NCBI GenBank assembly: GCA_003020945.1
Contig: PXRU01000002.1
Location: 32,060-96,059 of the forward strand
DNA length: 64,000 nt
DNA from: Halobacteriales archaeon QS_6_71_20
GTDB lineage: Archaea > Halobacteriota > Halobacteria > Halobacteriales > Haloferacaceae
Direction of reading: 5' to 3'
Shown here: positions 7,718 to 11,167 of the stretch, piece after piece
Layout: the number at the start of each line of letters is the position of its first letter
Position numbering within the stretch: the stretch's first letter is position 1
Translations under genes and position numbers: made by a program
Notes under the pieces: generated by a model
What the model saw: the letters and a program-made list of their open reading frames with translations, nothing else
Databases searched by the model: none
Told to the model about the DNA's origin: nothing

Positions 7718-7826
7718 ACGCCCCGGTAGCGCGTTGCCGCGTATAAAAGGTGTGCCACCCGTCGATCGGGAGCCCGTTTTATACTTCGATTATTGATAGA
7801 TAGTTCGGGGGTCGTTCTATCAGGAT

Positions 7827-7851
7827 GTTTCAGATATATTGATTCTGAAAC
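7827..7851. promoter_or_regulatory. perfect 8-bp inverted repeat GTTTCAGA-n9-TCTGAAAC flanking a TATA-like sequence
   Basis: gtttcagatatattgattctgaaac, 21 nt upstream of the 7872 ATG. Confidence 0.6.
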
Positions 7852-7871: not shown

Positions 7872-8009
7872 ATGTCACAGACCGACACGTCGATGACGGA
7901 GTGGCTGTCCGAGCACCCGCGGATGATGGGCGCGCTGTTCACGCTCGTCCTGCTGCTGTCGCAGGCGGGAAGCGTTGCGGGTTCGCAGGCCGCTACTGCC
8001 GGTCCGTAG
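7872..8009 (+). CDS. 45-aa small protein with one hydrophobic segment (resembles the short DUF7503-type haloarchaeal peptides)
   Basis: MSQTDTSMTEWLSEHPRMMGALFTLVLLLSQAGSVAGSQAATAGP; below the length cut-off of the ORF track; family name from memory. Confidence 0.75.
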   Translation: MSQTDTSMTEWLSEHPRMMGALFTLVLLLSQAGSVAGSQAATAGP

Positions 8010-10344
8010 AGTATCGATCGGTCAACCACTCGCGATCGATCGCTTCCGTCCAAAACAACCGATCCTTCGACCGGATCGCCGTCCTGCCGGCTTCTAAACA
8101 CTCCAGAAAGTCCGATATATCTACGCTGATCGTCTCGGAGCTACCCGAAGCGATGAACTGCGTAGTTACGCCCTTGATAGCCGGATGTGACATCGTTCCG
8201 ATCGCGAACGATCTGGTCGGATACGACCGAGAGATGAACCTAACGGTGTCCCCTTCGCTATCGACCGATTCGACTTCGAATACGGATCCGATACCGCTTT
8301 GACTCTGACACAACTGCACCATCGGATCCCCCGCGATACTGTACGCGCTGCCCGCGAACGGTCCCGTCCCCACCACGTCCAGCGCCGCGTACAGCGGGAA
8401 GCCGGCGTCGAACAGTCGCGCCAGGTCCCGACCGACCCGCGTCGCCAGCGAGTTCGGCACGTCCGTCAGCGAGACGACGCCGCCGAGCGCGCCCGCCTCC
8501 ACCAGCGCCATCCCCTGTCGGTAGGAGCTGCAGGCGTTGAGGAGGAACGCGTCGACGCCCGTCGAATCGAGCGTCCGGAGGTCGAGGAAGCCGTCGGAAC
8601 ACTCCATTCCGCGGTCGTCGACGTGGCCGACGTAGTGGAAGAAGTCGTGCTCGCCCGCCAGCAGGTCTCGGAGTTCCGCACGGGTCAGGTCGAGCTCCTC
8701 CCGGATGTCGAAGGTGACGTGGTCGCGGAAGCCGTACGTGTCGCCCAGCTCGTCGACCATCGCCTCGTCGTTGCAGACGACGGTGACGCCGATGGTGAGG
8801 TCCTCGGCGGGCGTCCGGTCGAGGCGCCGGCGGTACGACTCGACGGTCGGCTTGGCCGCCCGCATCGGGAACCCCGACCCGACCCACGCCTGCGCGATGC
8901 TGTCGGCGTCCCGCGGCGTGACGACCGTGTCGCTGTCGTCGGCGGCGTTCTGGGTCGTTCCCCGCGTCGGTCCGCCGAGGTCGACGGACGCGCCCGCGCC
9001 GGACGGGCCGTCCGCCCGACGCCGCGGGTCGCTCGCGCTCCGCGTCAGCGACGCGGCCCACACCGTCTTCCGGGGCGTACGGATGAAGTCGTCCAGCTGC
9101 GAGACGCCGTCGCCGTCGGCCGCGGTCCCGGCGTCCGGCGCCGGCGAGCGCACGACCGAGAGGTCCGACGCGAGAAACGGGAGCACGGACGCGTTCTCCC
9201 CGGCGGGCGCCACGTCGGTCGTGTGGGGCCAGTCGAGACAGTCGAGCGTCTCCTCGGTCGGCACGTCGAGGTAGGCGGCGGTGCGCTCCGCGAACTCCGC
9301 CCCGTACCACTCCGTCCACGGCGGGTCGAGCCGCTCGGTCAGCGTCTCGTGGACGTGGAGGTCCACGTCGTAGAGGCCGGCCGAACACGCCCGGGTCGCA
9401 CAGTCGAGCGTGAAACAGTGCCGGAGCAGCTCCGACAGCGCCGCCGCCAGTTCGCTCGGCTCCGCGGGGAGGTCGTGACGCACCTCGCCCGCGCGGAGAT
9501 ACGGCTCCTCGCTCTCCTCGACGTCGGCCGCGAGGTAGAACGACAGCGGCGTCGCCGAGAACAGCGCGCCGTACTCGAACGGGAGTCCGAGCGTGACGCC
9601 GGTGTCGACCCGCTCGACGAACCGCGGCGTCCGGAACGTCTCGCCGCGCTCGATCAGCGGGGGGTGTCCGCGGAGCGTGGGGAACGACCGCTCGGGCGAG
9701 GTCGTCGCGAGCGCCGAGCCGAACGTCGAGACGGCGCGCGCGAACCCGGCCGGCGTGTCGGGGACGGTCACGGTCCCCGCGGGGGAGGTGCGACGCGAGC
9801 GCGCGGCCAGCACCGGCCCGACGCGACCCTCGACCGCCCCCTCGACGGAGACGCGGGGGTAGCGGTCTTCGTAGGAGACGCGTGCCGGTCCCTCGACCGC
9901 GACGTACGTCTTGACGGGCGCCGTCGACAGCTCCAGCACGTGCGGGCCGGCCGGCACCCGCGCGGGGGCCTCCGCCGTCGCGGTCGCGACGACCGTGTTG
10001 TCCGCGTCGCGGACGTACACGTCGGCCGTACAGAGGGGCATGACGGCCGTCGCGTCGAGCCGCCAGCAGCCGTCGACGGGCGCCGGAAAGCGGTCGGTCG
10101 CGTCCGCCCGCTCGGCCGCCGGCGCCGCCCCGCGCGACCCGTCGAGCGCGACCGGGAGGCGGACCTCCTCGATGGAGTCGACGATGTCGTAGGCCCCGGG
10201 GGTCGCGGCCCCGGACTCGACGAGCCGCACCACGGACTCGACCGTCCCGCCGTCGGGGACGGCTCCCTCGACCCCGCTCCCGCCCGGGTCGCCGGCGCTC
10301 GGCGGACCCGAGCGCGACGGCTGCCCGGACCCGGGTCCCGTCAT
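7993..10344 (-). CDS. CHAT-domain (caspase-like) protein
   Basis: C-terminal FFHYVGHVDDRGMECSDGFLDL (His motif) and VDAFLLNACSSYRQGMALVEAGALGGVVSL (Cys motif). Confidence 0.85.
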   Translation of the reverse strand: MTGPGSGQPSRSGPPSAGDPGGSGVEGAVPDGGTVESVVRLVESGAATPGAYDIVDSIEEVRLPVALDGSRGAAPAAERADATDRFPAPVDGCWRLDATAVMPLCTADVYVRDADNTVVATATAEAPARVPAGPHVLELSTAPVKTYVAVEGPARVSYEDRYPRVSVEGAVEGRVGPVLAARSRRTSPAGTVTVPDTPAGFARAVSTFGSALATTSPERSFPTLRGHPPLIERGETFRTPRFVERVDTGVTLGLPFEYGALFSATPLSFYLAADVEESEEPYLRAGEVRHDLPAEPSELAAALSELLRHCFTLDCATRACSAGLYDVDLHVHETLTERLDPPWTEWYGAEFAERTAAYLDVPTEETLDCLDWPHTTDVAPAGENASVLPFLASDLSVVRSPAPDAGTAADGDGVSQLDDFIRTPRKTVWAASLTRSASDPRRRADGPSGAGASVDLGGPTRGTTQNAADDSDTVVTPRDADSIAQAWVGSGFPMRAAKPTVESYRRRLDRTPAEDLTIGVTVVCNDEAMVDELGDTYGFRDHVTFDIREELDLTRAELRDLLAGEHDFFHYVGHVDDRGMECSDGFLDLRTLDSTGVDAFLLNACSSYRQGMALVEAGALGGVVSLTDVPNSLATRVGRDLARLFDAGFPLYAALDVVGTGPFAGSAYSIAGDPMVQLCQSQSGIGSVFEVESVDSEGDTVRFISRSYPTRSFAIGTMSHPAIKGVTTQFIASGSSETISVDISDFLECLEAGRTAIRSKDRLFWTEAIDREWLTDRYSTDRQ

Positions 10345-10348
10345 GGGT

Positions 10349-11167
10349 TCACCGGAGCGAGTTCCAGTCCGTCCGGCCCCACTCCAGGATGTGCCACCGC
10401 TCCTCGGGGACGGACGAGCGCTCCCGCGTCCGGAGCTCCACGATCGCGTCGAGCGCGTCGCCGAGCGCGTCCGCCACCGCCCCGACGACCGGGTCCGAGC
10501 GCGGGTCGCCCTCGGCCGGTCGGGGGAGGTGGAAGTGGGCCATCCCGCCCCGCTCGCGCGTCGTCTCGGCCACGTCGCGAAGCAGCGGTCGCGCGCGCTC
10601 CTCGCCCAGCGCCGCACACAGCGTGTCGATCCGGTAGACGCCGACCCGGAGTCGGAGCCGCCCGCCCGCCTCCCCGTCCGCGACGGCGTCGATCGCCCCC
10701 GACAGGGTCGACCGGGCGTCGGCGGCCGCCGCCTCCGGCGACTCCCCGTCCCCGTCGAGGTCGAGGCGGGCGGGCGAGGTCCTGCCTCCCGGCTCCCCGT
10801 CGCCGGGCAAGCCGGTGTCGGTTTGGCCGTCCGGCTCGGGGGCCGACGCGTCCGCCGCGGCGGTCGGCTCCCGCACCGCCCCGGGGAGCCGCCGCACCGC
10901 GACGCCGTCGTCCCCGGGCGCGACCCCGTCGGGGAGCCACCCCGCGGCGTCGGCGGGGTCGCGGGTGAGCGCGAGCACGCGTCGACGGTCCCGGTCGGGA
11001 ACGCCGAAGTACCGCGAGGCCGCCGCGCGGTAGGCGTCGTCGGGAACGTCCCCGGTGACGAGGACGCCGCACCCGTCGTCCAGCTCCGCGAGCGCGGCCG
11101 AGAGCGTCGACTCCGGTCCCCGGAGGAGCGCCCCGTCGGCCCCGGCGCGGTTCGTCGTGCCGGTCAT
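10349..11167 (-). CDS. haloarchaeal partner protein of CHAT gene (DUF7504-like)
   Basis: MTGTTNRAGADGALLRGPESTLSAALAELDDGCGVLVTGDVPD...; ends 5 nt before the CHAT start; family name from memory. Confidence 0.7.
   Translation of the reverse strand: MTGTTNRAGADGALLRGPESTLSAALAELDDGCGVLVTGDVPDDAYRAAASRYFGVPDRDRRRVLALTRDPADAAGWLPDGVAPGDDGVAVRRLPGAVREPTAAADASAPEPDGQTDTGLPGDGEPGGRTSPARLDLDGDGESPEAAAADARSTLSGAIDAVADGEAGGRLRLRVGVYRIDTLCAALGEERARPLLRDVAETTRERGGMAHFHLPRPAEGDPRSDPVVGAVADALGDALDAIVELRTRERSSVPEERWHILEWGRTDWNSLR

Follow-up and report, generated by a model that had tools for sequence, protein, structure and literature searches.

A gene for a protein of predicted CHAT (caspase-haemoglobinase) fold and a convergent gene for a small DUF7503 peptide form a real and widespread unit in haloarchaea. 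The pair was followed up from a window of 64,000 nucleotides of Halobacteriales archaeon QS_6_71_20 (contig PXRU01000002.1), the whole stretch of DNA that was analyzed. Here, a third gene, encoding a DUF7504 partner, lies upstream of the CHAT gene, and a 4-nt spacer (ACCC) separates the partner stop from the CHAT start. The gene positions, the spacing and the 17-bp convergent overlap, as reported in a first-pass annotation made from the sequence alone, were exact to the base. The features are as follows.

7818..7844, plus strand: bipartite promoter element TATCAGGATGTTTCAGATATATTGATT, at -54 from the peptide ATG
7872..8009, plus strand: DUF7503 micropeptide gene (ATG 7872, TAG 8009; 45 aa), convergent to CHAT
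7914..7922, plus strand: HPR motif H15-P16-R17, directly before the hydrophobic segment (Pro in 101/101, R/K in 98/101)
7923..7979, plus strand: hydrophobic segment, residues 18-36, transmembrane or signal h-region (alignment, conservation)
7974..7982, plus strand: V-A-G, signal-peptidase-like AxA site, then the tail SQAATAGP (-3/-1 rule obeyed in 103/103 DUF7503 sequences)
7993..8009, no strand assigned: 17 bp over which the peptide and CHAT genes overlap at their 3' ends
7993..10344, minus strand: gene for the putative CHAT-fold protease (ATG 10344, TAG 7993; 783 aa)
8001..8006, plus strand: C-terminal Gly-Pro (exact GP end in 92/101)
8530..8532, minus strand: codon of predicted catalytic Cys605, NAC motif (invariant in 103/103 homologues)
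8623..8625, minus strand: codon of predicted catalytic His574, GH motif (invariant in 103/103 homologues)
8905..10242, minus strand: N-terminal region of the CHAT protein, ~residues 35-480, beta-rich and then alpha/beta in the model, with no Pfam match
10349..11167, minus strand: DUF7504 partner gene (ATG 11167, TGA 10349; 272 aa), predicted RecA/KaiC-like fold without Walker A

A convergent gene pair across the haloarchaea

Searches of 161 Halobacteria genomes detected CHAT in 146, DUF7503 in 134 and DUF7504 in all 161. DUF7503 without CHAT was seen in none of the 161, and CHAT without DUF7503 in about 12. Beyond Halobacteria, the 298-genome phylum sample yielded no DUF7503, and a distant CHAT in four genomes of one other family.

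The locus set comprised 100 DUF7503 loci from across the class and the window, 101 in total. A CHAT homologue lies close by in all 100, and the two genes converge in 100 of the 101, their stop codons lying a median of 3 nt apart (overlapping in 27/101, ≤50 nt in 75/101, ≤150 nt in 96/101 and as much as 250 nt in a few cases). Such recurrence far exceeds what chance would produce. The further neighbors of the pair vary and are unrelated genes, and the cassette usually occurs in one or two copies per genome, in the chromosome. The proposed linkage of a protease with a small hydrophobic peptide is supported. In genomes with several pairs, a peptide is closer to the one paired with the nearest homologue of its CHAT in another genome than to its genome mate in 29 cases versus 4, with 4 ties. 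The peptides thus track the CHAT lineage and not the genome, indicating that the pair is inherited together. Median identity is 58% for the peptide core versus 39% for CHAT (62% versus 37% between paralogous pairs), suggesting that the peptide core is constrained by more than CHAT. On a plasmid of Haladaptatus halobius (L293:1-4063), two S8 serine peptidase genes lie a few kb off a CHAT-DUF7503-HalOD1 cassette.

The partner belongs to DUF7504 (Pfam PF24336; E = 1e-25, 91.7 bits against a cut-off of 27). Its AlphaFold2 model (pLDDT 84) finds KaiC as best matches in Foldseek, and the Walker A pattern G....GK[ST] is absent in 40 of 40 DUF7504 partners. At times, it is fused to a HalOD1 signaling output domain. 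DUF7504 is directly upstream of CHAT in 39 of the 101 loci only, so what is conserved as a unit is the pair of convergent genes, with DUF7504 as a frequent but optional addition. In loci without DUF7504, the upstream genes are unrelated (biotin carboxylase, Cdc6, FtsZ, TrkH, thermosome), and therefore these loci revealed no overlooked third partner common to all. Of the three-gene locus described initially, the co-occurrence of CHAT and peptide stands, and the partner as a fixed member does not, DUF7504 being present in every genome in any case; yet all three genes are jointly missing in one relative.

The closest named relatives of the window are Halobaculum species (68 to 71% identity), which makes Halobaculum its most likely genus. 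In Halobaculum and near kin, the cassette site is flanked on one side by a CDP-alcohol phosphatidyltransferase gene and on the other by a gene that we read as encoding an MBF-like zinc-finger/HTH protein. Among these genomes, identity is ~70% for CHAT and ~55% for DUF7504 versus ~93% for the flanking TIM, so the cassette changes faster than its flanks. In the relative that lacks DUF7503 (G114, same genus), the flanking genes lie 106 bp apart and the three cassette genes are absent together: the cassette is gained or lost as one unit.

Fold and catalytic dyad of the CHAT protein

The CHAT protein of the window has no Pfam, NCBIfam or PADLOC match. Among its relatives, the best score against Pfam CHAT (PF12770) is 14.8 bits (E = 0.019), below the cut-off of 24, so the CHAT assignment is based on fold and motif. 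The AlphaFold2 model (71 homologues, pLDDT 86.7, pTM 0.88) matches gingipain R, SAVED-CHAT, separase and TPR-CHAT in Foldseek (E values of 7e-6 to 7e-4), and this predicted structure settles the CHAT, or caspase-haemoglobinase, fold. The transmembrane anti-sigma factor DdvA (8rw5, 8rot) is a further match, significant or near-significant. As the alignments span ~200 to 250 columns, the match appears to lie in the C-terminal CHAT domain; no known family was recognized in the N-terminal ~450 residues. Searching PDB sequences by profile returned no solved relative, and only fold comparison gave matches. Haloarchaeal CHAT is a divergent branch beyond the reach of the Pfam CHAT model.

The GH and NAC motifs noticed in the first-pass annotation are G573-H574 and N603-A604-C605. 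Conservation of this dyad had been named beforehand as a point on which the identification could fail; H574 and C605 are present in all 103 homologues, and H570 is likewise invariant (103/103). Together with the model and its matches to clan CD proteases, this supports the CHAT identity. From fold and dyad, we infer that the protein is an active protease.

The micropeptide, its promoter and a second peptide family

The short convergent gene, expected to encode one hydrophobic segment, does so and belongs to DUF7503 (Pfam PF24335; E = 3.9e-21, 74.8 bits against a cut-off of 27). The family motif before the segment is [HN]P[RK], with NPQ in place of NP[RK] in three peptides. The segment itself contains G in 99/101 and F in 101/101 and ends in LLLSQAG, followed by small residues. 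The signal-peptidase -3/-1 fit falls at positions +20 and +22; the h-region is far more conserved than that of an ordinary signal peptide. The AxA pattern could mean that a short peptide is cut off and exported, or could simply be due to small residues where the segment leaves the membrane. The tail is 8 to 11 residues long, variable and uncharged (22 charged of 967 residues, 101 loci). Nine peptides are without the GP end (L140, L149, L150, L156, L174, L177, L181, L188 and L189), ending for example in GGTIS, GTVT or STIG.

Between loci, the peptide gene differs by 0.36, 0.27 and 0.53 at its first, second and third codon positions, which is the pattern of a coding sequence and supports its translation. 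A spurious antisense ORF was considered and rejected on this codon-position pattern, the gene's own promoter and protein-level conservation.

That promoter is a bipartite element with consensus TATCAGAAAtnTTNAGATAAATTTATT, which starts at -54, -56, -55 or -51 (range -56 to -51) from the peptide ATG in about 88 of the 101 loci. A matrix fitted to it recovered 76 peptide promoters, plus 4 sites elsewhere, over 2.4 million positions of the loci; as these promoters had also served for training, it is the number of off-target sites that is informative. One of the four precedes a second peptide gene: at L126:5950-6297, the DUF7503 gene is duplicated in tandem next to one CHAT gene, the copies being identical across 39 aligned residues. 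In its own genome, the element has a single match at 2 mismatches. A whole-genome pattern scan of 61 genomes gave 21 matches, about 15 of which are peptide promoters by their coordinates. The remainder is near the reversed-pattern control, which argues against a regulon of this promoter in the 61 genomes. A conserved and nearly unique element indicates that the peptide is expressed under its own conserved control.

A second CHAT clade, found in this genome and relatives, has a convergent small gene 3 to 22 nt away. The paralogue in the same genome (G000:C30:3734-5602; L192:3524-5923) faces a diverged micropeptide (...RPRVALTVGMLALLLLAGDPASAEALDAGTTSVGDASEGP) missed by the DUF7503 profile, for which peptides of this second family score at or near noise. 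They contain [HR]PR (or HPRL), a hydrophobic segment and AxA, with a GP end in 4/5. The clade is single on the CHAT tree (support 100), where the peptide labels require 7 changes versus 20 in shuffles. Judged from these sequences, a common design despite divergence suggests that what counts is the motif, the segment, the processing site and the GP end. Upstream of the second-family peptide genes (L192-L194, L196, L197) lies another conserved element, ATTTAATAYTAACG.

A third CHAT subfamily (L199, L201-L203) has an intact dyad and no micropeptide found next to it, and is triplicated in tandem in L202. About fifteen sampled CHAT homologues in total had no peptide found, mostly with the dyad kept, so the peptide is not the sole substrate of the wider family. 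One methanogen-side CHAT relative has lost the dyad.

Known systems and candidate functions

TPR-CHAT (Csx29)/Craspase, with Csx30, shares the caspase-fold CHAT and its His-Cys dyad (Foldseek 7zoq) and has its substrate encoded alongside; CHAT substrates are commonly encoded next to the protease (PMC9729208). In contrast, the haloarchaeal cassette has no gRAMP, crRNA or TPR, its 45-aa membrane peptide is convergent, and it lies in chromosomes between housekeeping genes. SAVED-CHAT, a CRISPR-linked protease filament (8tl0) with the same CHAT domain, is among the best Foldseek matches (E = 8e-6), but no SAVED domain by Pfam and no adjoining CRISPR genes were found here. Separase and gingipain R, clan CD cysteine proteases, share the protease domain fold and differ in the N-terminal region. 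DdvA is transmembrane, whereas haloarchaeal CHAT has no evident membrane segment and the membrane part is a separate gene. The peptide and partner are members of function-unknown Pfam families, and the retrieved DUF7503 and DUF7504 entries do not contain the CHAT link, the promoter or the diverged second peptide family. In Rgg/SHP pheromone loci and convergent type I toxin-antitoxin systems, a tiny hydrophobic peptide gene also converges with a larger gene and overlaps its 3' end; the partner of the small gene is a transcription factor or an antisense RNA, respectively, as opposed to a protease here.

A defensive role related to gRAMP/TPR-CHAT, hinted at in the first-pass annotation, was not substantiated. 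PADLOC on the window proteins gave one weak match (E = 0.047) and nothing convincing, the three window proteins had no PHROGs match, and 50,697 phage records held no match to the cassette. No gRAMP, CRISPR, TPR or nucleotide-sensing part was detected in the proteins (Pfam, PADLOC) or beside the cassette, where the neighbors are housekeeping genes. The cassette falls outside type III-E/gRAMP.

The pair has the appearance of a protease with a dedicated peptide partner. We tentatively favor, at somewhat less than an even chance, a CHAT protease with its own membrane micropeptide as substrate or effector and DUF7504 as the likely signal input. The CHAT cysteine protease would be cytoplasmic, and the peptide would be produced on demand from its specific promoter and insert in the membrane N-in/C-out. 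The cytoplasmic, membrane-proximal [HN]P[RK] stretch would then be reachable by the protease and most likely be cut or bound, switching the peptide either off or on, in the latter case as a fragment that acts on the membrane or is exported. A DUF7504/HalOD1 protein, if present, would probably supply the signal that licenses the protease. This account is in line with the strict linkage and convergence of the pair amid otherwise unrelated neighbors, lineage tracking, the invariant dyad in a CHAT/separase/gingipain fold, the strict peptide motif, the dedicated promoter, the second-family peptide of like design and the gain or loss as a unit. Against it stand the three NPQ peptides, the dyad mostly kept in peptide-less CHATs and the peptide core being more constant than CHAT. 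Arg-specific cleavage at HP[RK] is a hypothesis drawn from gingipain and separase kinship. The residue that sets separase specificity, the Arg-pocket Asp, has been lost in TPR-CHAT (PMC9729208), so kinship does not allow Arg cleavage to be assumed.

The AxA pattern in all 103 DUF7503 peptides and in the diverged second family gives some weight to an exported signaling peptide, an appreciable though minority prospect. Here, ~37 residues would be a Sec-type signal peptide freeing an 8- to 10-residue Gly-Pro-ended peptide (~17 to 20 residues in family 2), which CHAT and DUF7504 would help to make or sense. In streptococci, short hydrophobic pheromone genes adjoin their sensors. The uncharged, variable tail with its fixed GP end, the dedicated promoter and the identical tandem peptide genes of L126 fit this. 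However, the hydrophobic segment is conserved far above what a signal peptide needs (F 101/101, G 99/101), no importer or receptor was seen adjoining, and CHAT is not a transcription factor. Haloarchaeal peptide signaling in a fuller form, with a promoter-driven precursor, a Gly-Pro-ended exported oligopeptide and CHAT (optionally HalOD1/DUF7504) processing or answering it, is in our view unlikely. If true, it would put a caspase-fold protease in archaeal cell-cell communication or cell-fate control.

The unusually constant core would also suit a peptide that is not a substrate but a regulator or membrane anchor, recruiting or inhibiting CHAT at the membrane, with the true targets elsewhere; other substrates must exist, given the peptide-less CHAT relatives with a dyad. 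We consider this distinctly unlikely, as it alone leaves the AxA site and the terminal GP unexplained.

There is a smaller chance still of a toxin-antitoxin-like pair, in which the micropeptide is a membrane toxin restrained by CHAT through degradation and/or by CHAT mRNA through the 3' antisense overlap. The bsrG/SR4 system is such a convergent type I pair. A small hydrophobic peptide, overlapping convergent 3' ends and linked presence and absence all agree with it, and CHAT without DUF7503 in about 12 genomes, with the reverse in none, is as expected for an antitoxin. But CHAT is large and under strong catalytic constraint, and we know of no antitoxin of that kind; the cassette is usually chromosomal in one or two copies, and gaps of up to 250 nt weaken the antisense part.

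Antiviral defense of the Craspase/SAVED-CHAT type is very improbable: the CHAT fold is common to SAVED-CHAT and TPR-CHAT and the cassette is accessory in Halobaculum, but it is found in most haloarchaea, usually in one or two copies between housekeeping flanks, and defense, phage, CRISPR and nucleotide-sensing searches gave nothing convincing.

A caspase-fold protein, probably a protease, and a putative membrane micropeptide thus occur together in about five sixths of the sampled haloarchaeal genomes. A literature search found no paper on DUF7503, on CHAT in haloarchaea or on the pair. Haloferax volcanii has strong caspase-like activity that cleaves after Asp, with no gene homologue reported (PMC3615174). 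DUF7503 and DUF7504 were both matched in H. volcanii in the profile search, so the CHAT pair is expected there; as the activity prefers Asp, the link to CHAT is a lead only. Under the favored substrate or effector reading, the pair may serve as a simple test case of a protease and its substrate that is amenable to genetics, and the regulator of the conserved promoter would show when the pair is used.
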